Source: Photobacterium swingsii
GTDB lineage: Bacteria > Pseudomonadota > Gammaproteobacteria > Enterobacterales > Vibrionaceae
NCBI RefSeq assembly: GCF_024346715.1
Contig: NZ_AP024852.1
Span: 1,612,001 to 1,676,000 of the forward strand
Reading direction: 5' to 3'
Length of the DNA: 64,000 nucleotides
Every line of letters begins with the position of its first letter. Position 1 is the stretch's first letter. Positions 36,694 to 49,292 of this stretch are shown here, in pieces. The notes under the pieces were generated by a model. The model was not told the origin of the DNA. It was given only the letters and a program-made list of their open reading frames with translations, and did not search any database. The translations under genes were made by a program, and so were the position numbers.

Positions 36694-36711
36694 TGCTGGT
36701 CTATACCAGTA
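36694..36711. promoter_or_regulatory. PhnR-type operator upstream of the FAD oxidoreductase
   Basis: CTGGT-CTAT-ACCAG at 36696-36709, 29 bp before the ATG. The arms match those of the operators before phnT, phnS and phnW. Confidence 0.7.
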
Positions 36712-36738
36712 AATTTCCATTAACAGTCTGGATGAATT

Positions 36739-38211
36739 ATGCCAACAGAAAAAGAAGCAGGTACAGAAACAAAGCAGGCGTTGAAATCGGGCAAGGTGAG
36801 CAAAGCAAATGACAGTTGCTTTCAACCTTTTTGGTTTGCTCAAGCAATGGAACAAGAGCCGCCTTCGACGATCAATGTATTGACACGAGATATACAAACC
36901 GACGTGTGTATTGTCGGTGGGGGTTACACTGGCTTATGGACTGCCATTAATATTAAACAGCAGCAACCAGAGCTGGATGTGGTTGTGATAGACAAAGGCT
37001 TATGTGGGAGTGGGGCATCTGGCCGTAATGGTGGCTGCATGCTGACATGGTCCACCAAGTATTTGTCGATGAAGAAACTCTACGGTGAGCAAGAGGCTAT
37101 CCGTTTAGTCCAAGCGTCGGAACAAGCAATTTTTGAAATTGAACGCTTTTGCCAGCTGCATGGTATTGATGCTGAGTTGCGTGTTGATGGCACCTTATAT
37201 ACCGCCACAAACGCAGCACAGCAAGGCAGTATGGATCCTGTACTCAAAGCACTAGATCAACATGAAATCAATAGTTGGCAGCAATGGCAAATAGATCGTG
37301 TACAGCAAGATGCGGGATCCGATCTTCCTTGTGAAGGTTATTACTCATCAGCAGCTGCAAGTGTTCAGCCCGCGAAATTGGCGCGTGGCTTAAAGCGTGT
37401 TGCTGAAAAAATGGGAGTAGTCATTTATGAAAATACGCCAATGGAGGACATAAATACTGATGTACCTATTACGATAACCACACCAGAAGCGGATATCTAT
37501 GCAGGTAAGGTCGTGTTAGCTTTAAATGCTTGGATGATGGAGAAATTCCCAGAATTTAAGCGCAGTGTGGTATTAGTTTCATCGGATATGGCGATTACAG
37601 CCCCTGTTCCTGAAAAGCTAAAGGTGATAGGCATAAATGACGGTAAAACGATCGTTGATTCACGGATATTTGTTCATTATTACCGAACGACTGTGGACGG
37701 TCGATTAATGTTAGGCAAAGGGGGCAACTATTTTTCGTTTGCGAATAAGTTAAGCAAAGTGTTTGATCAACCAAGTCGGTACACAAAGATATTACGTCAG
37801 TCATTTAATCGTTTATTTCCATCGCTGTCGCAACAAAGTTTCGATGCTACTTGGACGGGGGCATCAGACCGTTCAACGACAGGGTTACCTTTTTTTGGCA
37901 AGATGAAGCAGAACGCGAATATTTATTATGGGCTAGGGTATTCTGGTAACGGTGTTGCTCAAACATGGATAGGCGGGAAAATATTATCGTCGATGGTGTT
38001 AGAGCAAGATAATAAATGGAGTCGATGTGGACTAACTTCGGGGCCAAAAGGGCAATTCCCGCCTGAGCCTATTCGTTGGATAGGCGTTATGATTGTACGT
38101 GACGCTATTCGTCGAAAAGAAGCGGCAGAAGATGAAAATAAAACACCGCTCTGGCTTGATAGGCAACTGGCTAAGTTTGCCAATGCTGCGGGAAAAGCTG
38201 ATAAAGGTTAA
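36739..38211 (+). CDS. FAD-dependent oxidoreductase of the DAO family, phosphonate-regulon member
   Basis: A 490-residue flavoprotein. After an N-terminal extension of about 50 residues, the dinucleotide-binding motif DVCIVGGGYTGLWTA appears at residues 55-69, then a GSGASGRNGGCM segment and a C-terminal FAD contact (YYGLGYSGNGVAQTWIGGK). A 60-residue tail follows (RWIGVMIVRDAIRRKEAAED ...). It belongs to the DAO/GlyD-like amine oxidases. Enzymes of this kind (PbfC, PbfD) recur in bacterial phosphonate clusters, where they oxidise N-substituted aminophosphonates to feed the AEP pathway. An operator like those of phnSTU and phnW lies just upstream, so it is probably induced with them. The substrate is not proven. 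Confidence 0.82.
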   Translation: MPTEKEAGTETKQALKSGKVSKANDSCFQPFWFAQAMEQEPPSTINVLTRDIQTDVCIVGGGYTGLWTAINIKQQQPELDVVVIDKGLCGSGASGRNGGCMLTWSTKYLSMKKLYGEQEAIRLVQASEQAIFEIERFCQLHGIDAELRVDGTLYTATNAAQQGSMDPVLKALDQHEINSWQQWQIDRVQQDAGSDLPCEGYYSSAAASVQPAKLARGLKRVAEKMGVVIYENTPMEDINTDVPITITTPEADIYAGKVVLALNAWMMEKFPEFKRSVVLVSSDMAITAPVPEKLKVIGINDGKTIVDSRIFVHYYRTTVDGRLMLGKGGNYFSFANKLSKVFDQPSRYTKILRQSFNRLFPSLSQQSFDATWTGASDRSTTGLPFFGKMKQNANIYYGLGYSGNGVAQTWIGGKILSSMVLEQDNKWSRCGLTSGPKGQFPPEPIRWIGVMIVRDAIRRKEAAEDENKTPLWLDRQLAKFANAAGKADKG

Positions 38212-38650
38212 TTCTGCGATAGATTATATTGCTTATTTTTAAGTGTTAATGGCATGTCTATAGCGAGAAACTTAATGAGTGGGCACCTTTGTATACTTAT
38301 CATTCATGTGGTTGGTTTTAAATAGAATAATAGTCTGAAATTGCGAGTTAAGTAGCGTTACTAGAATAGATATTGATGTAAGGTCAACCTCCTATAACAA
38401 TCAGAAGTGATTGTGAAAGTAATATGTATAGATATTAATCTAATTTTCCAGCCTATTTTATATGCTAATGTTCGTCCTGCTTTTTTTAGTACGCTTTACT
38501 GCTTGCCACCTGGGCTGGTGAATTGGTTTTAGAGTAATGATTCTACTGTAATGCTATGTAATTAAAGAGAATTAAACTTAACAAAAGTTAATTTGAGTAT
38601 CTTTCCTTCGTAAGACAAACTAGTCTGCCTTAAACGACAGGAAGAGAAAA
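38212..38650. other. AT-rich intergenic region
   Basis: 439 bp between the FAD oxidoreductase and the first of the four paralogous small genes. No terminator with a T-run and no gene is evident. The promoter of the small-gene cluster is expected in the right part. Confidence 0.4.
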
Positions 38651-39019
38651 ATGAATAATAATAACGTGACTAACATCAAAGAAATGCTAGAGGTTATTCG
38701 AAGTGTTGGGATTAAACTTGATGATAACAACGTTGAAGAAGCGTTAGAAAGCCTAGAGATGAAATCTAACTTGAAAAGTGTTTTGGGTGTTGCAAAGGCT
38801 TGTGAGTTAGATATTAGTACTGATAAAGTTAAAGTCGCAATAACGATAGTTGCTATGAACTACAAAAAATGTGAAGGCCAGGTTGAGTCAAACTTGCATA
38901 GCATCATAGAATCGCCATGCCACTCATTATTTTTAACAACTATAAAAATGACGCCTCAATTTCAAGAATTACTCAACATTACTGGAGATGCTGTTTGTTA
39001 TAACAAATATCTTTGGTAA
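38651..39019 (+). CDS. Hypothetical small protein, member A of four tandem paralogues
   Basis: A 122-residue protein with a strong AGGAAGAG ribosome site. The first 40 residues (rich in Asn, Asp and Glu) are unique to this copy. From about residue 41 the sequence follows the same pattern as the next three genes: hydrophobic-charged helix (LKSVLGVAKACELDIS), a K-x5-I-V-A-M segment (DKVKVAITIVAMNYK), then SPCHSLFLTTIKMTPQFQEL. No known domain, signal peptide or membrane segment is seen. The function is unknown; the array suggests a lineage-specific family that grew by duplication. Confidence 0.7.
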   Translation: MNNNNVTNIKEMLEVIRSVGIKLDDNNVEEALESLEMKSNLKSVLGVAKACELDISTDKVKVAITIVAMNYKKCEGQVESNLHSIIESPCHSLFLTTIKMTPQFQELLNITGDAVCYNKYLW

Positions 39020-39059
39020 GAATGCTTCCTATTATATGAAATGTTAACTATTTAATAAT

Positions 39060-39335
39060 ATGATAATTGTTAATAAACTTAGAAAGTTAATTCGCTTTGG
39101 TAATATGATGGAAATAAATCTTGCTGATGATAATGTGAAATCGTGTATCGTGGCTGTTTCAATGAATGAAAATATTCATGATAATCAATTGGGCGCAGCA
39201 TTAATGTCTGCTTACCGAACACAATCTTCGTTATTTATCAGTGCACTCAATAACACCTCTGAATTTAAGGTTGCACTTGATATTCTTAACGATGAAATGA
39301 GTGATTTTATAAAAAACAGCAAGGTTGATCATTAA
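39060..39335 (+). CDS. Hypothetical small protein, member B of four tandem paralogues
   Basis: A 91-residue protein 40 bp downstream of member A. Pattern shared with C and D: NKLRKLIRFGNMMEINLADD, NVKSCIVAVSMNENIHDNQL, GAALMSAYRTQSSLFISALN, then NTSEFKVALDILNDEM. It is likely all-helical and soluble. The ribosome site before ATG 39060 is poor (AT-rich leader), which leaves the exact start open, although the alignment with C and D starts within two residues of it. No function is known. Confidence 0.7.
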   Translation: MIIVNKLRKLIRFGNMMEINLADDNVKSCIVAVSMNENIHDNQLGAALMSAYRTQSSLFISALNNTSEFKVALDILNDEMSDFIKNSKVDH

Positions 39336-39484
39336 GATTTCACTTTAGTGATAATCGATTGGGTCAAAATATACCTCAAATTTACATAATGAGGGATATT
39401 GAGTAAAGTTACTGGATAACTTCTCAGTTAATTGATAAGTTCACACCTAATGGAAACGATGTTTTATTAATAGGTAGATATCCA

Positions 39485-39733
39485 ATGATCCGTAATCGAG
39501 TAAAGTGGTTAATACAATTTTGCCAAGAAATGGATGTAAATATTCACAATAACAAGGCTAAAGCAAGTATTGTTGCGATATCGATGAGTGATAGTCTTCA
39601 AGATAGTGAATTGGGTGACTGTTTTATTCACGCATACCAAGCACCATCAAGCATCTTTATGGATGCTCTTCAAACAACAGATGAATTTAACGCTATTCTC
39701 AATATTCTTAATGAACAGCTGTTGGAAGTGTGA
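39485..39733 (+). CDS. Hypothetical small protein, member C of four tandem paralogues
   Basis: An 82-residue protein. AGGT lies 8 bp before the ATG. It aligns with member D from its first residue (MIRNRVKWLIQFCQEMDVN against MIQNRIRSLIQLCRVVELN) and shares KASIVAISMSDSLQDSELGD, AYQAPSSIFMDALQTTDEF and a leucine-rich end (NAILNILNEQLLEV). No cysteine pair, signal or membrane helix is present. Unknown function. Confidence 0.72.
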   Translation: MIRNRVKWLIQFCQEMDVNIHNNKAKASIVAISMSDSLQDSELGDCFIHAYQAPSSIFMDALQTTDEFNAILNILNEQLLEV

Positions 39734-39962
39734 CTCCTGTTGTTGATGGGAGAGGTTGCTTTTGTGTTATGCATAACTCCCCATAACCTTTAAGTGTTAT
39801 ATTAAACAGTTTTTGTAAATTCCCTTGAATTTAGTAGCGTAGTTTTGCTACAGTTCACCCTCATTTAAAACATTGTTTTATTTGGTTTTTACTCATAATA
39901 AAAATTAACCGTCCGATTTAACCTTTGGGTTTGATTTAACAGGATGTATGACAGGTTACACA

Positions 39963-40211
39963 ATGATTCAAAATAGAATAAGAAGCTTAATACAGTTATG
40001 CCGTGTGGTAGAACTAAACGCTAATGATGAAAAAGTACAAGCATGCATAGCTGCTGTTGCATTAGATGATAGTTTGGAGGTGAATATGCAAGGAGAAGCG
40101 CTATTGAGTGCGTTTCGCTCACAAGCCTTGCCTTTCATTAATGCGCTAAAGCGTACGACTGAATTTAGTGAAACAATGGCAATGCTGCGCGAAGAACTTT
40201 GCAATAATTAA
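39963..40211 (+). CDS. Hypothetical small protein, member D of four tandem paralogues
   Basis: The fourth copy, 82 residues if it starts at the ATG at 39963, which aligns with the start of member C and has AGG at proper spacing; an ATG at 39948 gives five more residues. It keeps the family pattern: MIQNRIRSLIQLCRVVELN, KVQACIAAVALDDSLEVN, GEALLSAFRSQALPFINALK and RTTEFSETMAMLREEL. A strong terminator 23 bp after the stop closes the cluster. Confidence 0.72.
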   Translation: MIQNRIRSLIQLCRVVELNANDEKVQACIAAVALDDSLEVNMQGEALLSAFRSQALPFINALKRTTEFSETMAMLREELCNN

Positions 40212-40233
40212 TTAGAAATAGCGACTGATTAAG

Positions 40234-40272
40234 GCAAGAACGATGAGGGTATCTCGTTCTTGCTTTTTTTTA
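40234..40272 (+). terminator. Terminator of the small-paralogue cluster
   Basis: GCAAGAACGA ... TCGTTCTTGC stem followed by eight T. Confidence 0.9.
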
Positions 40273-40285
40273 CACTTCGTTGGTA

Positions 40286-40993
40286 TTAGCCTTTCGATAA
40301 GGTTGCAACAGATTCAATACTTAATGCATCGTGCCGCCAATACTCCAAATCACAATCAATCATATTGCCATGCTGGTCGTAATTTAATCGCTCGATAAAC
40401 ATCGCAGGGCTACCTGCTGTTGCTCGTAAGGCTTGTGCAGTTTCCCCAAGTAATGATGTGGTACTGACACGATAACGTGTTTTGGCATACAGGGTATTGT
40501 AGTGTTCGCGGTAAGTGTCTGTAAGCGAGGTTGTCACATCATGTTCAAGCAAGTTCGGAAAATATTCAGGCAGAACGAAATTGGTCACTACCATGACAGG
40601 GCGCTCATCTAGAAAGCGCAAACGGTCAATACGGTAAACTTCAGAAAAAGGAGAGATGTCTAGTAACGAAGCTGCTCTTCGACTTGCTGGTACACGCTTG
40701 GCATCAATGAGTTCAGATCGTGCAACGCGGCCTTGAGCGCTTGCCATGGACGAAAAGTTTGTCGTTAGTGTTGGGTCATAGCGCAATGGTTCGGGTGACA
40801 CAAACCAGCCTCGACGATCTTCACGGTATAGCTTCCCTTCTGATTCAAGTAATGCCAAAGACTCACGCAAGGTAACACGTGTTGTGTTGAATGATTCAGC
40901 AAGTTTTCTTTCAGCTGGAAGTTTGTTGCCTGGTGCTAATAGTCCCGCGTCAATTTGTTCATTGATCGCTTCCATGATTTTGATGTACTGCAC
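40286..40993 (-). CDS. phnR: GntR-family regulator of 2-aminoethylphosphonate genes
   Basis: A 235-residue transcription factor of the HutC/UTRA branch of GntR. The winged-helix DNA-binding domain (about 1-70) has LAPGNKLPAERKLAESFNTT and RVTLRESLALLESEGKLYRE; the UTRA ligand-binding domain (about 85-230) has the pattern VYRIDRLRFLDERPVMVVTN. A GTG start with AAGG upstream fits best. UTRA regulators in this context (PhnR) respond to AEP or related phosphonates. TGGT-N4-ACCA palindromes, which match operators known for this branch, sit before phnT, phnS, phnW and the FAD oxidoreductase. None is visible upstream of phnR itself. Confidence 0.88.
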   Translation of the reverse strand: MQYIKIMEAINEQIDAGLLAPGNKLPAERKLAESFNTTRVTLRESLALLESEGKLYREDRRGWFVSPEPLRYDPTLTTNFSSMASAQGRVARSELIDAKRVPASRRAASLLDISPFSEVYRIDRLRFLDERPVMVVTNFVLPEYFPNLLEHDVTTSLTDTYREHYNTLYAKTRYRVSTTSLLGETAQALRATAGSPAMFIERLNYDQHGNMIDCDLEYWRHDALSIESVATLSKG

Positions 40994-41251
40994 AGTTTGC
41001 CTTCTGGTTAAATGCCAATTCGATTACGCACTCTGTGATAACAAAATGTGTTAACAAAACGCCTTGAAGCGCTTTATTTAATCATCAATCGGATAAGCAT
41101 TATGATGCCAAAGAGTGAAGAATAATGGAATGTGAAATATGGCGTCGTGCTAATAATAGGGGGGGAATAGAAATGAAAAAGCACTGCAAAATGTAGATTA
41201 CAGCGCTTATTCATCATGTCTATTCACAGTGCGAATAAATAGCTTAGCCTG

Positions 41252-42973
41252 TTAGCGTTTACGCCATGCTTGGGTGTAATGGTCGAGTGTTTTGTTTAAT
41301 CCTACATGTGCTAGCTTCATTGCGGCAGCCGTTAATAAAATCATAACGGACATAGCTGCTGCTGGGCCTGTTTGACCTGCGTCATCCATGTTAAGTACAG
41401 AAACAGAAGCAGGCATAGTGTCTGTGGCATACAGGAATACTATGGCTGAGGTTGTTGTCATGGCATTGACAAACAAGTACACCGCAATCTCTAAAATGGC
41501 CGGTGCACAAACAGGTACAGTAACTTTAAAAAAGGTTTTGTACTGTGGCATTTTGATAGAGGCTGAAATCGCTTCTACCTCGGCAGGGAGTTGTTTAAGG
41601 GCTGTTAGCGCTGTCATGTGTCCGACAGTGTAGTAGTGAATTATGGTGTTGATAACCAATATGGCCATGGTGCCATACAGCATAGACAGCGGGTTCGCTT
41701 GATGGTTAAAGAAGAAAATATAACCTAAGCCCAATACCAACCCAGGCACAGCCATAGGGATGATGGCAAACATTTGTAATAAACTACGTAATGCACCAAA
41801 ACTACGGCCTTTCTCGATGCAGTATGCTCCTAAGAAAATAACGATTGTTCCCACAACGGCAACCAAGCTCCCCAGTTTTAATGAATTAAAATACGGCTCC
41901 CAACCATAAGTACTGAATTCCGCAAAGTTGTAGTTATTTAAACTCAGGGTTAAGTTCCACGGCCAAAAGGTAACGAGTGAACCATAAATTGCCATACCAA
42001 TTATTGCTAGAATCGCAAACGAAATAACAGAGCAAAAGATGAAGCAAACCCCATCACGTAGCGGGCTTGGTGTCGGTACATAAGCGACAGAGCGTGAATC
42101 AAACATACCTTTTTGTTTTTTCTGTACCCAGCGGTCGCCAAAAAAAGCTAATACAGCGGGTAGTAATAGCACTACGCTGGCCACCGCACCCATTGAAAAA
42201 TTTTGTTGCCCGACAACTTGTTTAAAAATGTCTGTTGCTAATACGTTGTAGTGGCCGCCAATGACTTTAGGTACACCAAAGTCACATACAACCAAGGTGA
42301 AGACGACAATTAAGGTACTGATTAACCCGTATTTCGCGGCGGGTAATGTCACTACAAAAAAGGTTTTGAAAGCAGAGGTATCTAGCGCTCGTGCGGCTTC
42401 ATATAATCGAGCATCGGAAGTTTTCAAAGACGTCGATAATATCATCAGAGCGTGTGGAAATGTCCAGAAGATCAAACCTATCGCAATACCGATTGGACCA
42501 TAAATCGATTGTCCCAATAGTAGCTCTTTGGCGATGCCTTGATTGCCAAAGAGGTAAATTAAACTGATAGCGGGTAAAAGCGATGGTGCAAGAATAGGGG
42601 CAGCTCCTAAAACGGTAAACACCCCTTTAAATGGCATGCAGCTTCGGGTCAGCGCATAGGCATAACCAAACGCCAATATGCCAACACTCAAGGTCACAAT
42701 TAACCCTATGGTGACGGTATTTTGTAATGACTGCCACAAGGCTGGCGATGTTAAGTACTCGGCAAAGTTAGCCATACCCACATAATTGCCTTGGGTGTCT
42801 TGCACACTTTTTTGCAGCATACTGACCAGTGGCCCAAGAACAAACAAAGCCATGGTTAAGGTGAGCAAGATCAGTATGATTGCTAGAGTGACGTTGTCAC
42901 GACTTAATTTGGCTTTAAGTTGGGTTAAATACTGGCTGCCCATTGACTGAGATGGGGTCATCGTCGTATCCAT
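41252..42973 (-). CDS. phnU: 2-aminoethylphosphonate ABC transporter permease (two permease halves fused)
   Basis: A 573-residue inner-membrane permease with about 12 helices in two homologous halves, each ending in the EAA-like loop (YEAARALDTSAFKTFFVVTL near 190-210 and VEAISASIKMPQYKTFFKVT near 470-490). It matches the AEP-transporter permease type in which the two subunits are fused. The gene starts 15 bp downstream of phnT and has AAAGG before its ATG, so the two are co-transcribed. It imports AEP together with PhnT and PhnS. Confidence 0.9.
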   Translation of the reverse strand: MDTTMTPSQSMGSQYLTQLKAKLSRDNVTLAIILILLTLTMALFVLGPLVSMLQKSVQDTQGNYVGMANFAEYLTSPALWQSLQNTVTIGLIVTLSVGILAFGYAYALTRSCMPFKGVFTVLGAAPILAPSLLPAISLIYLFGNQGIAKELLLGQSIYGPIGIAIGLIFWTFPHALMILSTSLKTSDARLYEAARALDTSAFKTFFVVTLPAAKYGLISTLIVVFTLVVCDFGVPKVIGGHYNVLATDIFKQVVGQQNFSMGAVASVVLLLPAVLAFFGDRWVQKKQKGMFDSRSVAYVPTPSPLRDGVCFIFCSVISFAILAIIGMAIYGSLVTFWPWNLTLSLNNYNFAEFSTYGWEPYFNSLKLGSLVAVVGTIVIFLGAYCIEKGRSFGALRSLLQMFAIIPMAVPGLVLGLGYIFFFNHQANPLSMLYGTMAILVINTIIHYYTVGHMTALTALKQLPAEVEAISASIKMPQYKTFFKVTVPVCAPAILEIAVYLFVNAMTTTSAIVFLYATDTMPASVSVLNMDDAGQTGPAAAMSVMILLTAAAMKLAHVGLNKTLDHYTQAWRKR

Positions 42974-42988
42974 AATGTGTACATGCCT

Positions 42989-44065
42989 TTATCGATTAAG
43001 CTGGAAAATATGTGCGTGTTTTTTCGATATATTGAGGTGCATGAAATGGCCACGCTCTAAACCTAATTGGCGTGTTTCACGAATAGGCACATCAACTTTG
43101 ATGGGTTTAGCATGATAGTCACCTTGCAAGGTGCATTCGGCGCGCACAAAGGTACCTTGGAACTCAAGATCTTCGATCTGAACAGGAAAAGAGGTTTCAG
43201 ATTGCTGCTCATCGACACTGAAACGAAGATCCTCAGGGCGAAGTGCGAGTTCAAAACGATCACCGCGGTTGAGTGATTCACAGGGCTTTTCTAACAAAGA
43301 CTCCCCAATGCGAATTTCGTGATCACTCACCACAGAGCTTGGAATGAAATTCATATTACCTACAAACTCAGCAACAAAGCGTGAAGCGGGTTGTTGGTAG
43401 ATCTCTTGAGGTGTGCCGACTTGCTCAATAACACCATGATTCATCACAACAATACGATCTGCCATCGCGAGTGCTTCTTCTTGATCATGGGTCACCATAA
43501 TCGTGGTGATCCCGAGTTGACGCTGCAAGCGACGGATCTCTTCACGAAGATGTGTACGTACTTTTGCATCTAAAGCTGACAAAGGTTCATCAAGCAGTAA
43601 CAAACCTGGTGATAATGATAAGGCACGGGCTAGTGCTATGCGCTGTTGCTGGCCACCGGATAATTGGTTAGGAAACTTAATGCCAGCTTTAGGTAAGCCA
43701 ATTACTGATAACCAGTGGTTAACGATATCATCCGTTTCTTTGTTGCTTTTACCTTGGTTGCGAAGACCTAACGCGATGTTGTCGAAAACGCTTAAGTTTG
43801 GAAAGAGTGCATAAGATTGAAAGACGATACCAAAGTCACGCTTTTCTGGGGATAAGAAAGTCGTGTCTTTCTCATTTTGGATGATGGTACCTGAGCTGGC
43901 GAGATCTAAGCCTGCAATAGCACGTAATAGGGTGGTTTTACCGCACCCTGAAGGACCAAGAAAACAGATGAATTCACCTTTATTGATCGTAAGAGAAATG
44001 TTCTCTAAAGCAGTGAATTGTCCAAATTGTTTACTCACATTCTTAATCTGTAGATACGTTTCCAT
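42989..44065 (-). CDS. phnT: 2-aminoethylphosphonate ABC transporter ATPase
   Basis: A 358-residue ABC ATPase. Walker A GPSGCGKT at residues 37-44, signature LSGGQQQR, Walker B LLLLDEP and the H-loop TIMVTHDQEEALAMADRI are all present; a C-terminal TOBE-like regulatory region follows (about 245-350). The start is the ATG at 44065 with GAGTGAG upstream, in preference to the GTG at 44077. A perfect 16-bp palindrome (operator) lies 17 bp before this start. It powers AEP uptake. Confidence 0.9.
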   Translation of the reverse strand: METYLQIKNVSKQFGQFTALENISLTINKGEFICFLGPSGCGKTTLLRAIAGLDLASSGTIIQNEKDTTFLSPEKRDFGIVFQSYALFPNLSVFDNIALGLRNQGKSNKETDDIVNHWLSVIGLPKAGIKFPNQLSGGQQQRIALARALSLSPGLLLLDEPLSALDAKVRTHLREEIRRLQRQLGITTIMVTHDQEEALAMADRIVVMNHGVIEQVGTPQEIYQQPASRFVAEFVGNMNFIPSSVVSDHEIRIGESLLEKPCESLNRGDRFELALRPEDLRFSVDEQQSETSFPVQIEDLEFQGTFVRAECTLQGDYHAKPIKVDVPIRETRQLGLERGHFMHLNISKKHAHIFQLNR

Positions 44066-44081
44066 GTTAAAACTCACTCAT

Positions 44082-44097
44082 TTTGGTATATACCAAA
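44082..44097. promoter_or_regulatory. PhnR-type operator upstream of phnT
   Basis: TTTGGTATATACCAAA, a perfect 16-bp palindrome 17 bp before the phnT start. Confidence 0.8.
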
Positions 44098-44307
44098 TCT
44101 ACCGAGTAGGCGTTACAATATAATGACATTAGATTGACGAAAAAAAGACAACACCATAGTGGTGAAAATAAGCAACAGAGTTAATACTTAATGTTTGCTG
44201 AATCACGCATTATTTGTCGAACTAAAAAAAGAAATTGAATCGCTGGTCATTTTTTAGTCGACTCAAGTTTGTTATTTTTGAATGGAACAAGTAGATAAGG
44301 AATAGTT

Positions 44308-44475
44308 ATGGAAATGAAAATGCTTCGTCGAAATATTTCTTATATGGAACGTGAGCTGTCAGAGATGAAAAGAGAGTTAGCCGTTTTAGAAGAGCGCGAG
44401 TTCCAGACTAAGAAATTGAATCCAGTATTTCAACCTGATCCGCTCGTTATAACTGAGCTCAGTGTTGTTGATTAA
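44308..44475 (+). CDS. Small coiled-coil protein of 55 residues between phnT and phnS
   Basis: An unannotated-size frame with an AAGGA ribosome site 7 bp before ATG 44308 and a TAA at 44473. The product is charged and helical: MEMKMLRRNISYMERELSEM, then KRELAVLEEREFQTKKL, with heptad-like Leu/Met/Ile spacing that suggests a short coiled coil, and a final PDPLVITELSVVD. It is on the opposite strand to phnT and phnS and followed by its own terminator at 44526. The function is unknown; it might interact with a regulator or a transporter subunit. Confidence 0.6.
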   Translation: MEMKMLRRNISYMERELSEMKRELAVLEEREFQTKKLNPVFQPDPLVITELSVVD

Positions 44476-44525
44476 GGGAATGATAGTTACCTTCTTTCTC
44501 TTATTTTTGAACAAATAAGACGAAA

Positions 44526-44551
44526 TAAACGGTGCACTAGGCACCGTTTTA
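44526..44551. terminator. Terminator between the 55-residue gene and phnS
   Basis: AACGGTGC-ACTAG-GCACCGTT with flanking A and T runs; works for both the small gene and, on the minus strand, phnS. Confidence 0.85.
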
Positions 44552-44620
44552 ACTTTATGTTGTTTATCAATATTGCAGTGATAAAGATTATTTGTGGCCT
44601 AATATATTGATTAGTAAAAC

Positions 44621-45637
44621 TTAACCACGAGGCTCTGATTTCGCATCAAATCGGTTAGACCAAGCTTTCAGCACTTCACTACGGTTTGCGGCCATTTTAG
44701 AGAAGTTCATTTTCACCATGGCTTCTTCAACATTTGGGTAGTTTTTCACGGGTGTGCTGACATTGCTGTGGCCAACAACAGGGTAGAACTCGTTGTAGAG
44801 TTTATTGGCTTCTCTAGAGATAGACCAATCCACTAAGCGTTTTGCCGCATCTGATTGAGGGTTAACAAGACCAACCGCTTCAGATTCCCAACCGACACCG
44901 CCTTTCGGCAGAATAATGTCTATCGGTGCGCCTTGCGATTTCAACTTAGCACCACGAATTGCCATCGAAATACCAATCGCGACTTCCCCCATACCTGCTT
45001 GCACGCAAGGCTTAGAACCTGAGTGGGTGTAATGCGCAATATTGTTATCCAGTTTGCTCATGTAATCCCAGGCTGCATCTTCACCCATGAGTTCCATCCA
45101 TGCTGACACTTGCATGTAACCCGTTCCTGATGAGGCAGGGTTTGGCATTGCAATTTGCCCTTTATATTCAGGCTTTAGGAGGTCATCCCATGTTTCTGGC
45201 TTAGACAGGTTCTGCGCCTTTGCGACCGCTTCGTTGAAACATACGGCATTGAAGAAAGCATCGTTACCAAACCATGCTTTGTTGTTTTCAGGATCAACCA
45301 TAGTGGTGCGAATTTGATCTAAACCTTTAGGCGAATAAGGTTTCAGTACGCCGTTGTCTTTGAGCAGTGCCATGGATGAACCTGCCAACCCCCAAACGAC
45401 ATCAGCATGAGGATTGTTTTTCTCTGCCAGCAACTTCGCCGTCATTATCCCCGTAGAATCGCGTACCCATTTGATCTTGATATCTGGGTTTGCTTGTTCA
45501 AAACCTGATTTAAATTTCGCGAGCATATCCGTTTCAAAAGCGGTGTATACCGTTAGCTCTTCGGCAGCAAAAGCAGGGGTAGCAGTAAGAGCAGCTATTG
45601 CAGTCAAAGGTGCAATGATCCAACGGTTTTTCATCAT
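44621..45637 (-). CDS. phnS: 2-aminoethylphosphonate ABC transporter binding protein
   Basis: A 338-residue periplasmic binding protein of the iron/AEP family 1 type. Signal peptide MMKNRWIIAPLTAIAALTA...AFA is followed by EELTVYTAFETDMLAKFKSG, typical of PhnS. Other family regions: KWVRDSTGIMTAKLLAEK, PHADVVWGLAGSS and MPNPASSGTGYMQVSAWME. GGAGAAAGA precedes the first ATG. It has its own operator-controlled promoter and is separated from phnTU by the small + strand gene, an arrangement different from a simple phnSTU operon. Confidence 0.92.
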   Translation of the reverse strand: MMKNRWIIAPLTAIAALTATPAFAAEELTVYTAFETDMLAKFKSGFEQANPDIKIKWVRDSTGIMTAKLLAEKNNPHADVVWGLAGSSMALLKDNGVLKPYSPKGLDQIRTTMVDPENNKAWFGNDAFFNAVCFNEAVAKAQNLSKPETWDDLLKPEYKGQIAMPNPASSGTGYMQVSAWMELMGEDAAWDYMSKLDNNIAHYTHSGSKPCVQAGMGEVAIGISMAIRGAKLKSQGAPIDIILPKGGVGWESEAVGLVNPQSDAAKRLVDWSISREANKLYNEFYPVVGHSNVSTPVKNYPNVEEAMVKMNFSKMAANRSEVLKAWSNRFDAKSEPRG

Positions 45638-45656
45638 TCTTTCTCCATGAATTGAG

Positions 45657-45672
45657 TTTGGTATGTACCAGA
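45657..45672. promoter_or_regulatory. PhnR-type operator upstream of phnS
   Basis: TTTGGTATGTACCAGA, 20 bp before the phnS start, differing at two positions from the phnT operator. Confidence 0.78.
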
Positions 45673-45872
45673 TTGTTGCGACAGGAATGATGCTAGAGCG
45701 GCAATATGACAGTTCAATGATTACCGGGTTTCACTTTGTTAACAGTTTTATGTGGCTGCGATGACAGCTTAAAAACAGGCTAGTAAAGGGTGCATACTGA
45801 AATGTGAAAGTTTTATTAACTCTATGGTTGAGGGATTTACAGTTAATCCTCGGAGTCGTTATAGTTTTTCTA

Positions 45873-45888
45873 TCTGGTATAGTCCAAA
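45873..45888. promoter_or_regulatory. PhnR-type operator upstream of phnW
   Basis: TCTGGTATAGTCCAAA, 14 bp before the phnW start; three differences from the phnT palindrome. Confidence 0.65.
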
Positions 45889-45901: not shown

Positions 45902-47020
45902 ATGGAAAACGTTGATAATCAATATTTACTGTTAACACCGGGCCCACTAACGACGTCACCGAGTGTACGTGAAGCCATGCTAAAAGATTGGTGCACATGG
46001 GATGATGACTATAACAAAGGCATTGTTCAGGTGATCCGTCAGCAGCTGGTGCAGATGGCAACGCAGCATCATGGCTACACAAGTGTCTTAATGCAGGGGA
46101 GTGGTACAGCCTCTGTTGAGGCAACCATTGGTAGCGTTATTCCTGCTGATGGCAAGCTATTAGTGGTCAACAATGGTGCTTACGGTGAGCGTATTGGGCA
46201 AATTGCGCAATACCTTAATATTGCTCACCATGTCATTGAGTTAGACGAAGTGACTCAGCCAAGTGTTGAACAGTTAATTGATGTGTTAGAAACCGATCAT
46301 ACAATCACTCATGTTGCTATGGTGCACTGTGAAACCACTACTGGTATGTTGAATCCGATTGAGGCTGTGTGTGATGTAGTTAAATCGCACAACAAAGTCA
46401 TGATCCTTGATGCAATGTCGAGCTTTGGTGGTATCCCTATGGATATTGGCGAGCTTGGCATCGACTTTATGATCAGCTCTGCAAACAAATGTATTCAGGG
46501 CGTACCGGGCTTTGGTTTTGTGATTGCGAAACAAACCGAACTTGAACGTTGTAAAGGCTTAGCGCGTTCGCTATCGCTGGATCTTTATGATCAATGGCAA
46601 TGCATGGAGATCAACCAAGGGAAGTGGCGTTTTACTTCACCAACACATACGGTTAGAGCGTTTCATCAAGCACTGATTGAGTTGACCGAAGAAGGAGGCG
46701 TTGCTGCTCGCTTTGATCGCTATTCGATGAACCAAAAAATTCTGGTCGAAGGCATGGAAAAGCTCGGTATCCAATGTTTACTACCATGTGATTTACATTC
46801 ACCAATCATCACCTCTTTCTTCTCGCCAGAACATCCAGATTATGACTTTAAGCAGTTCTACAATTTGCTGAAACAAAAGGGTTTCGTTATTTACCCTGGC
46901 AAGGTCTCGAACGCTGATTGCTTCCGAATAGGTAACATCGGTGATGTGCACAACCATGATATTGAAAACTTAATCACAGCAGTGAGTGAGTCTATGTACT
47001 GGCTGGCAGGTAACCAATAA
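45902..47020 (+). CDS. phnW: 2-aminoethylphosphonate:pyruvate aminotransferase
   Basis: A 372-residue PLP enzyme that moves the amino group of AEP to pyruvate, giving phosphonoacetaldehyde and alanine. It begins [19 protein letters not shown] at the ATG at 45902 with GGAAAGAG upstream; the longer frame from 45824 adds unrelated residues. [12 protein letters not shown] contains the PLP lysine. [39 protein letters not shown] and [17 protein letters not shown] match Salmonella PhnW. Its stop codon overlaps the start of pbfA by one base (TAATG), so translation is coupled. Confidence 0.96.
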
Positions 47021-48450
47021 TGGATAGGTTACAGGGTCACACTGTGGCGAGTCAGCTCCCCAATCAAATAACAACTCACATGGATATGCGCGCGTTACGC
47101 AGTGAAGGTGATACCAATATAACCCCCGCTCGTGAGCGTTGGGTGGCATCGATTGCCGATCTACAAACGCAGACCATGCTAACGCAAGACAGCCAGTATT
47201 TTTTGCATCAAGCCATGTCGACACCCTGTTTAGACGCACTAGTTGGGGCGAATGGTATTTATCTTGAAGATGCAGCGGGTAAGCGCTACATGGACTTTCA
47301 TGGCAATAATGTCCATCAATTAGGCTATGGTCATCCTCATGTATTAGGTCGGATTCAACAACAATTGGCGAGCCTTCCTTTTTCGCCACGTCGCTTTACC
47401 AACCAAACAGCGATAGATTGCGCGAAGAAACTCACTGAGATTGCTGGTGGCGATCTTAATCGTGTGCTGTTCGCACCGGGGGGCACTTCTGTGGTGGGAA
47501 TGGCGTTGAAATTAGCGCGTTATATTACGGGCAATTACAAGGTGGTTTCCTTATGGGATTCTTTTCACGGTGCGTCATTAGATGCCATTTCTGTGGGGGG
47601 AGAGGCTTGTTTCCGTGAAGGTATGGGGCCGCTAATGGCGGGTGTTGAACGTATACCGCCTGCAGTGAGTTACCGCGGCGCATTTCCTTCATCAGAGGGG
47701 AGCGATGTGCATTATGCCGACTACCTTGAATACGTGATTGAGAAAGAAGGTGGCATTGGGGCGTTCATTGCTGAAGGTGTGCGCAATACTGATGTGCAAG
47801 TGCCGAGTAAAGCCTACTGGCAACGCATTCGAGAAATTTGTGATCGTCACAATGTGATGCTTATTATCGATGATATTCCTAATGGCATGGGGCGTACGGG
47901 TGAATGGTTTACGCACCAAGCCATGGGGATCGAACCCGATATGCTCTGCATTGGTAAAGGGCTAGGTGGCGGCGTTGTGCCCATGGCGGCTTTGATCACT
48001 AAAGATGAATACAACACGGCTGCGCATGTCTCTTTAGGGCATTACACCCACGAGAAAAGCCCGATTGGTTGTGCTGCTGCGCTTGCAACAATGGAAGTGA
48101 TCGAACAGCAAAATCTGTTAGTGAAAGTGCGAGATGATGCTGCTTATGTTGCCGAACGTTTAGAGAGTATGAAACAACGTTTTCCTATTATTGGGGATGT
48201 TCGTGGCATTGGCTTACTGTGGGGGATCGAGCTCGTTACCGATAGGCTAACCAAAGAGCGGGCGTTTGATGCTGCTGAGCAGGTGTTATATCGCAGCTTA
48301 GCGCTTGGTGTGAGCTTCAAAGTCTCACAAGGCAATGTGTTACAACTGAGTCCCCCTTTGATCATTGAGCGAAAAGACTTAGCTAAAGCCCTCGATATTG
48401 TCGAGCAAGCCATTTCAGAAGTTGTTCATTCGACTGATTTAACAACGTAA
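47020..48450 (+). CDS. pbfA: (R)-1-hydroxy-2-aminoethylphosphonate ammonia-lyase (PbfA-like)
   Basis: A 476-residue class III aminotransferase-fold PLP enzyme between phnW and phnX. PbfA of vibrios turns (R)-1-hydroxy-AEP into phosphonoacetaldehyde and ammonia, so hydroxylated AEP can enter the same route. The PLP lysine is in MLCIGKGLGGGVVPMAALI. The usual DEVQTGFGRTG of class III transaminases is replaced by IDDIPNGMGRTGEWF, which is a mark of this branch, and the N-terminal part (MDFHGNNVHQLGYGHPHV) is also typical. The start overlaps phnW by one base. Function inferred by context and sequence type, not proved. Confidence 0.88.
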   Translation: MDRLQGHTVASQLPNQITTHMDMRALRSEGDTNITPARERWVASIADLQTQTMLTQDSQYFLHQAMSTPCLDALVGANGIYLEDAAGKRYMDFHGNNVHQLGYGHPHVLGRIQQQLASLPFSPRRFTNQTAIDCAKKLTEIAGGDLNRVLFAPGGTSVVGMALKLARYITGNYKVVSLWDSFHGASLDAISVGGEACFREGMGPLMAGVERIPPAVSYRGAFPSSEGSDVHYADYLEYVIEKEGGIGAFIAEGVRNTDVQVPSKAYWQRIREICDRHNVMLIIDDIPNGMGRTGEWFTHQAMGIEPDMLCIGKGLGGGVVPMAALITKDEYNTAAHVSLGHYTHEKSPIGCAAALATMEVIEQQNLLVKVRDDAAYVAERLESMKQRFPIIGDVRGIGLLWGIELVTDRLTKERAFDAAEQVLYRSLALGVSFKVSQGNVLQLSPPLIIERKDLAKALDIVEQAISEVVHSTDLTT

Positions 48451-48482: not shown

Positions 48483-49292
48483 ATGAAACAAGTACAAGCG
48501 GTAATGTTTGACTGGGCTGGTACAGTTGTTGATTTTGGCTCATTTGCACCGACATCTATCTTCGTTGAAGCATTTAAACGTGAATATGGTTTTGATATCT
48601 CGTTAGAAGAAGCACGCGTGCCGATGGGGCTTGGTAAGTGGGATCACATCAAATGTGTTGGCGAATTACCTGAAGTGGCTCAACGCTGGCTGGCTCAATT
48701 CGGTAAGCCGATGGATACCAATGACATCGATAAAATTTACCAAACCTTCATGCCATTGCAAATTGCCAAAGTTGCTCAGCATGCTGACTTGATCCCTGGT
48801 ACAAAAAGTGTGGTTGATGGATTTCGCGAGCAAGGTATTAAGATAGGCTCATGCACAGGCTACCCGCGCGTTGTCTTGAATGAACTCTTGCCTGCAGCCA
48901 AAGCAAACGGTTTTAGCCCTGATTGTGCGGTTGCCACGGATGACCTTGCTGCGGGTGGCCGACCGGCACCTTACATGTTGCTTAAGAACATGATTGAACT
49001 AGCAGTCGATGATGTAAAAACATGTGTGAAGGTGGACGATTCAATACCAGGCATTACGGAAGGGCTGAATGCCGGTATGTGGACTGTGGCATTGTTACTA
49101 TCGGGTAATGAAGCGGGTTTAACGCAGCAAGAGTTTGAGGCTGCAGATACTGAGCGACTAGCGCAAGCACGCAATAAGGCAAAAGATGCGTTTGCAATGT
49201 CGGGGGCGCATTATCAGATTGACACAGTGGCACAACTTCCAGAAGTGATTGCCGATATTAATCGTCGTTTGGCGCAAGGTGAGCGACCATAG
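48483..49292 (+). CDS. phnX: Phosphonoacetaldehyde hydrolase
   Basis: A 269-residue HAD-superfamily enzyme that splits phosphonoacetaldehyde into acetaldehyde and phosphate. MFDWAGTVVDFGSFAP holds the nucleophilic Asp and the second Asp is replaced by Ala, as usual in PhnX. MGLGKWDHIK carries the Schiff-base lysine in the cap domain. GSCTGYPRVV and KVDDSIPGITEGLNAGMW complete the HAD motifs. It lies 32 bp downstream of pbfA and ends the operon at a strong terminator. Confidence 0.95.
   Translation: MKQVQAVMFDWAGTVVDFGSFAPTSIFVEAFKREYGFDISLEEARVPMGLGKWDHIKCVGELPEVAQRWLAQFGKPMDTNDIDKIYQTFMPLQIAKVAQHADLIPGTKSVVDGFREQGIKIGSCTGYPRVVLNELLPAAKANGFSPDCAVATDDLAAGGRPAPYMLLKNMIELAVDDVKTCVKVDDSIPGITEGLNAGMWTVALLLSGNEAGLTQQEFEAADTERLAQARNKAKDAFAMSGAHYQIDTVAQLPEVIADINRRLAQGERP

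Follow-up and report, generated by a model that had tools for sequence, protein, structure and literature searches.

Organization of the aminophosphonate locus

The 64,000-nucleotide stretch of Photobacterium swingsii DNA analysed here (positions 1,612,001 to 1,676,000 of contig NZ_AP024852.1; hereafter the window) carries genes for the uptake and degradation of 2-aminoethylphosphonate (AEP), among them the regulator gene phnR, together with a nearby gene, pbfB, for an oxidoreductase dependent on flavin adenine dinucleotide (FAD). We find one type of palindromic site, of the form TGGTNTANACCA, before phnT, phnS, phnW and pbfB, and we propose that it is the operator through which PhnR acts on all four (Table 1). 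The preliminary description of the window had claimed four such sites shortly before start codons, and all of them are present at the gaps given in the table. It had also placed the oxidoreductase gene several kilobases away, whereas the 3' end of pbfB lies 2.1 kb from phnR, with the two genes convergent.

The pbfB product is recognized by TIGR03329, a model titled 'putative aminophosphonate oxidoreductase', and the gene is linked to an AEP cluster of the phnW/phnX type made up of the genes in the table. That the cluster encodes a GntR regulator of the UTRA type is borne out by both domain matches (PF00392 and PF07702) and by a TIGR03337 score above the cut-off of 296.75. Among the matches listed, which extend to about 302 bits, PhnR is the sole protein of the genome above that cut-off. 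For phnW we use the ATG at 45902 as the start because the longest open reading frame (ORF) matches TIGR02326 only from residue 32 onwards.

Table 1. Predicted genes and sequence elements, in window coordinates (ABC, ATP-binding cassette)
Feature	Position	Strand	Remarks
PhnR-type operator of pbfB, CTGGTCTATACCAG	36696-36709	+	19.3 bits; 29 bp to ATG 36739; imperfect palindrome
Operator of phnT, TTTGGTATATACCAAA	44082-44097	.	24.8 bits; perfect palindrome; 16 bp to ATG 44065
Operator of phnS, TTTGGTATGTACCAGA	45657-45672	.	22.2 bits; 19 bp to start at 45637
Operator of phnW, TCTGGTATAGTCCAAA	45873-45888	.	19.8 bits; 13 bp to ATG 45902; imperfect palindrome
pbfB-type FAD-dependent aminophosphonate oxidoreductase, 490 aa	36739..38211	+	TIGR03329 752.6 bits (cut-off 632.8); PF01266 198 bits
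phnR, GntR/UTRA (HutC-type) regulator	40286..40993	-	TIGR03337 336.8 bits (cut-off 296.75); PF00392 + PF07702
phnU, AEP ABC permease	41252..42973	-	TIGR03262
phnT, AEP ABC ATPase	42989..44065	-	TIGR03265; ATG at 44065, ORF runs on to GTG 44077
phnS, AEP-binding protein	44621..45637	-	TIGR03261
phnW, AEP transaminase	45902..47020	+	TIGR02326 620.6 bits
pbfA, (R)-1-hydroxy-AEP ammonia-lyase	47020..48450	+	NF049939 727 bits (cut-off 525)
phnX, phosphonoacetaldehyde hydrolase	48483..49292	+	TIGR01422 329.1 bits (cut-off 220)
Four 11-bp direct repeats like tandem PhoB boxes	44112..44151	-	14 bp before phnT operator; best box 11/14
Candidate PhoB box of phnS	45706-45723	-	11/14 positions; 33 bp before operator
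Candidate -10 of phnS, TAGCAT	45690-45695	-	10 bp after candidate PhoB box; inferred layout
Four small ORFs between pbfB and phnR	38651-39019, 39060-39335, 39485-39733, 39948-40211	all +	

The four sites rank highest in the genome

TIGR03329 scores above its cut-off in 86 of 247 genomes of the family. We fetched 60 of the corresponding neighbourhoods, which with the window make a set of 61 loci and 1.23 Mb; the 25 of the 86 genes left out all come from one genus (g12). A 16-column matrix was then built from 123 phnS, phnT and phnW sites of relatives. The window's genome was excluded from the training set, as were five loci whose pbfB sites were already known, and not a single pbfB site was used.

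Scored with this matrix, the four sites head the window, where the fifth-best place reaches 11.0 bits. For the genome scan that the preliminary description had called for (5.65 Mb), we scored all 36 places matching the pattern TGGWVYRBWCCA and computed a bound for the 16-mers that the pattern misses, none of which can top 18.7 bits anywhere in the genome. The four sites take the first four ranks in the genome, with the pbfB site fourth, and the next-best places, two at 17.2 bits, both lie within long ORFs. The pattern itself is not enriched (36 places versus 42 for the reversed control), and the evidence for the sites therefore lies in their rank, place and conservation rather than in their number. 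A search with the 12-mer that allowed one mismatch returned 81 + 78 matches versus 49 + 48 for the reversed control, a result that we do not use as evidence. On contig 2, TGGTNTATACCA occurs exactly at two more places, with scores of 12.7 and 15.6 bits; both lie within ORFs and were rejected as sites. We conclude that the four sites are real and not the product of chance. If the longer GTG start of phnT at 44077 is used, the gap behind its operator shrinks to 4 bp.

The TGNTATAAT-like core and the position of the motif near start codons would also suit a promoter element, namely an extended -10 sequence (TGGTATA), in place of an operator. We consider this extremely improbable: when the 123 sites are counted symmetrically, the ACCA half is conserved as much as the TGGT half, and GG and CC show no variation in any of 246 strand counts, a uniformity helped by the rule that a site could have no more than one mismatch. 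In addition, a separate -10 candidate lies upstream of the phnS operator at Pho-box spacing, and another adjoins the operator in phnT.

Conservation of the operators in relatives

Sites with at most one mismatch to TGGTNTANACCA are present in all 46 upstream regions of phnT, all 46 of phnS and all 45 of phnW; in phnT, the core matches without mismatch in 43 of the 46 and with one mismatch in the other three. The phnT count drops loci L097 and L123, where the phnT start is off the locus, and the 340-base regions of phnS and phnW overlap in the divergent promoter, the same sites being partly counted for both.

The survey of pbfB used ORF-based starts, a search range of -400 to +150 around the ORF start and a threshold of at least 16 bits. 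It thereby avoids the shifted positions that arose in relatives when, in a first conservation scan, pbfB starts were extrapolated from the window's longer N terminus. A pbfB site reaches the threshold in 24 of 25 Photobacterium upstream regions (two of them at 16.0 bits), and 20 of these 24 leave a gap of 9 to 19 bp between the end of the 12-bp core and the first in-frame start codon that could be used. The sites are kept whether pbfB adjoins phnR, lies about 14 kb away or stands behind phnX. Across 13 non-redundant genomes, the mean frequency of the major base is 0.97 in the 12-bp pbfB core versus 0.44 in the upstream and 0.49 in the downstream flank; the sequences were aligned at their best-scoring 16-mers, a choice that favours the core, and the redundancy filter removed the window and locus L095 from the alignment.

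Across the 61 loci, 159 of the 161 sites of at least 16 bits stand at the starts of pbfB, phnS, phnT or phnW. The share of the three phn genes is partly built in, the matrix having been trained on most of those sites; that of pbfB is not. Control ORFs of at least 100 aa, taken at the same distance, have a site in 8 of 243 cases in Photobacterium and 4 of 367 in other genera, and among the eight, five lie next to pbfB in divergent orientation, one is an ORF without a label located at the phnS/phnW promoter and the last two are the Exo_endo_phos gene described below. The 13-mer TTGGTCTATACCA, which represents the more frequent form of the pbfB site, is not enriched in exact matches, with 23 places in 52 Photobacterium genomes versus 29 for the reversed control. 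Immediately in front of pbfB stand 15 of the 23, and a sixteenth is found some 3 kb away from phnR in a genome that lacks pbfB; the window's own site begins CTGG and is not counted. Taken together, the comparative evidence strongly supports the membership of pbfB in the predicted regulon, as the preliminary description had supposed for the oxidoreductase.

Beyond Photobacterium, pbfB has a site in one of 36 loci of other Vibrionaceae, and there the site is that of a divergent promoter shared with phnW. In 18 of the 36, pbfB stands directly behind a phn gene (phnS in 12, phnR in two, phnX in one and phn_DUF6 in three). The three preceded by phn_DUF6 (L077, L079 and L118) fall into one protein cluster, which in L118 is TIGR03340.

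PhoB-like boxes and promoter layout

A stretch within 70 bp of an operator counted as a PhoB-like box if it agreed with the consensus at 11 or more of the 14 positions; the term denotes likeness in sequence only. Between 0.5 and 0.8% of mononucleotide shuffles reach this threshold (0.5% for phnT). Of 14 Photobacterium, 13 have such a box 14 or 15 bp before the phnT operator, and 7 of 15 have one 33 bp before the phnS operator. It is found before pbfB in 10 of 24 Photobacterium, seven of them at 27 or 28 bp before the operator, and before phnW in none of 12 Photobacterium and none of 21 cases from other genera. In those genera, phnT has a box in 29 of 32 cases at 14, 15, 36 or 47 bp, distances that agree with 11-bp repeats arranged in arrays, and phnS in 10 of 30. 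With the candidate elements of Table 1, transcription of phnS would start just before the operator, as expected if a repressor blocks transcription there.

Chemistry of the oxidoreductase

According to the available text of Zangelmi et al. 2023 (PMC10590968), PbfB, PbfC and PbfD convert N-methyl-AEP to phosphonoacetaldehyde; the activity of PbfB is described there for cell extracts only, in which plain AEP gave no phosphate. The window's oxidoreductase shares with that PbfB its FAD dependence, the PF01266 fold, its place in AEP clusters with phnW and phnX and its occurrence in Vibrionaceae. It differs in that the window's pbfB appears as a separate transcription unit that converges on phnR and has a predicted operator of its own; the available text of PMC10590968 contains no match for 'regulat', 'operon' or 'PhnR'. 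By BLASTP, the window's protein matches E. coli PuuB at 27% over 392 aa, and the same paper reports 31.2% to PuuB over the domain for V. vulnificus PbfB, by another method than ours. On the question of whether the window's protein sides with V. vulnificus WP_049798008 and apart from PbfC and PbfD, TIGR03364, which the paper names for PbfD1, gives 23.9 bits only. A search by sequence found no close solved structure, the best match being a glycine oxidase (8.6e-11).

The idea that the enzyme would oxidize N-methyl-AEP is already in print and is not new. The published family result agrees with the part of the preliminary description that proposed oxidation of an N-alkylated AEP, but not with the part in which the product was passed to PhnW and PbfA: because the published enzymes give phosphonoacetaldehyde directly, only PhnX would be needed downstream of PbfB.

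A probable PhnR regulon that includes pbfB

We think it highly probable that PhnR, a GntR regulator of the HutC type, controls phnT (with phnU and phnR), phnS, phnW (with pbfA and phnX) and pbfB through the TGGTNTANACCA operator, and that these genes are produced together. The HutC operator consensus, as given in the available text of PMC4494728, is NyGTMTAKACNy, which the motif of the four sites fits. The sites, their conservation and the gene families are computed here, and the PbfB reaction and the HutC consensus are taken from print.

In the model that we propose, PhnR would bind the operator before each of these genes, and since the operators appear to lie at or just after the transcription start, bound PhnR would block transcription. 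A ligand that marks incoming aminophosphonate, perhaps AEP, N-methyl-AEP or phosphonoacetaldehyde, would release PhnR, whereupon the importer, the AEP branch and the N-methyl-AEP oxidase would all be made. PhnSTU would bring in the substrates; PhnW, PbfA and PbfB would convert AEP, hydroxy-AEP and N-methyl-AEP, respectively, to phosphonoacetaldehyde, which PhnX would split into acetaldehyde and phosphate. At phnT and phnS, the PhoB-like boxes that lie upstream of the operator may add a requirement for phosphate starvation to uptake.

Several observations weigh against this proposal. No site of its own precedes phnR in any of 57 upstream regions (two to four mismatches at best); we read phnR as part of a phnTUR transcription unit. 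In the window, neither pbfB nor phnW has a PhoB-like box (8 of 14 positions each, with shuffled means of 8.2 and 7.9). In 17 of the 36 loci outside Photobacterium, pbfB lacks a site of its own and has no phn gene, phn_DUF6 counted among them, immediately before it; in one of them, L099, it stands behind a gene 34% like pbfA. Because these 17 loci fit neither arrangement, we rejected a family-wide rule by which pbfB would be either an operon member or equipped with its own operator, and the predicted operator of pbfB is a trait of the genus Photobacterium, not of the Vibrionaceae at large. In L095 (putative P. sanguinicancri), one of the two closest relatives fetched, the pbfB site is damaged (8.1 bits) by a change at a position that is invariant in the training set, with the phn operators intact. 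Finally, at least nine GntR-type proteins of the genome match the PhnR model at E values up to 1e-3, and HutC paralogues can share such operators.

The damaged copy in L095 and the other genera that do without a pbfB site could be taken to mean that the site is, in this strain, a chance match or a functionless relic. This is hardly credible given that the site is intact at 19.3 bits in the closest genome (G089, locus L092), that it is present in 24 of 25 Photobacterium and that its core is conserved within diverged flanks. The paralogues, for their part, raise the prospect that pbfB answers to another HutC-type regulator with an overlapping preference, the likeness of the sites reflecting a preference shared by the family; the breadth of the printed HutC consensus and the asymmetric form, TGGTCTATACCA, that the pbfB site takes in most Photobacterium would fit such an arrangement. 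We nevertheless judge it very unlikely, as the four sites top the whole genome with no near-scoring places of the kind that a second regulator might have, and as pbfB is functionally tied to the phn genes and has PhnR for a neighbour.

If PhnR controls pbfB, oxidation of N-methyl-AEP and uptake of AEP would share one switch in Photobacterium, a hint that for the cell N-methyl-AEP is an ordinary companion substrate to AEP. PhnR, a regulator of aminophosphonate use in the sea that has received little study, would also gain a 16-bp operator that can be tested, and further phosphonate genes in these bacteria could be sought with it.

A further gene with a PhnR-type site

The two strong sites away from pbfB, phnS, phnT and phnW score 21.6 bits and stand at the start of a gene between phnX and pbfB (L107:6939-9143 and L103:10858-12980) that is intact in L107 and interrupted in L103. 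Its product has an Exo_endo_phos domain and a signal-peptide-like start, and is presumably secreted; NCBIfam yields weak exonuclease III matches only, and no solved chain was matched. Matches to it occur in 5 of 52 Photobacterium genomes, and this search of the genus found none in the window's genome. The Exo_endo_phos fold includes sphingomyelinases. That PhnR controls a scavenging route for the aminophosphonate lipids of marine animals is an unlikely idea: if the enzyme cuts ceramide-bound AEP or N-methyl-AEP, the regulon would join extracellular lipid cleavage, uptake and oxidation by PbfB. Since this search gave no homologue in the window's genome, such a route would be a lineage-specific extension.

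Other neighbouring genes

The last three of the four small ORFs between pbfB and phnR are related, the second and fourth being 38% and 34% identical to the third. Neither the first nor the second has a match in Pfam or NCBIfam. The third has matches in 9 of 121 family genomes and is found in tandem also in G089 and G017. The four small genes were seen in only 2 of the 60 fetched loci, those of the two closest relatives, in a search for which two of the four queries were in the wrong frame.

Elsewhere in the locus set, the phn neighbourhood holds a gene for an EamA-type membrane protein in 30 of 61 loci (for example L067:8266-9174), which was TIGR03340 (phn_DUF6) in the three tested. At L106:7704-9887, with a relative in L108, the space between pbfB and phnT holds a gene for a TonB-dependent receptor in the opposite orientation. 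The divergent neighbour of an operator-less pbfB at L121:2688-3506 has a weak type I phosphodiesterase match (PF01663, 1.7e-6).

Comparison with known systems

The phn cluster of Salmonella has a transporter of another subfamily. Its phnR (STM0430) and the PhnR-clade STM3602 are, like the regulator considered here, of the GntR family and put with phosphonate use in the available text of PMC5351497; unlike the present case, no operator is given there for the Salmonella PhnR. In P. putida BIRD-1, the phnWX and aep genes likewise combine a substrate-specific regulator with PhoBR on AEP genes, but that regulator is the LysR-type AepR, acting with PhoBR, NtrBC and CbrAB (PMC9311074, in the text available), whereas here it is a presumed repressor of the GntR type. 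A 2023 review describes LysR regulators of such operons, and its available text contains no match for GntR (PMC10574752).

The HutC-subfamily GntR regulons of PMC4494728 likewise have a UTRA regulator and an operator core of GT-N4-AC; in contrast to our case, the main text of that paper is without PhnR, and alkylphosphonates figure in it only as a ligand of PhnF. The literature that we searched, which comprised open papers and had RegPrecise outside its range, nowhere describes an operator for PhnR in front of pbfB. The proposed link between PhnR and pbfB would be no new kind of system: it would modestly enlarge a type of regulon already known.

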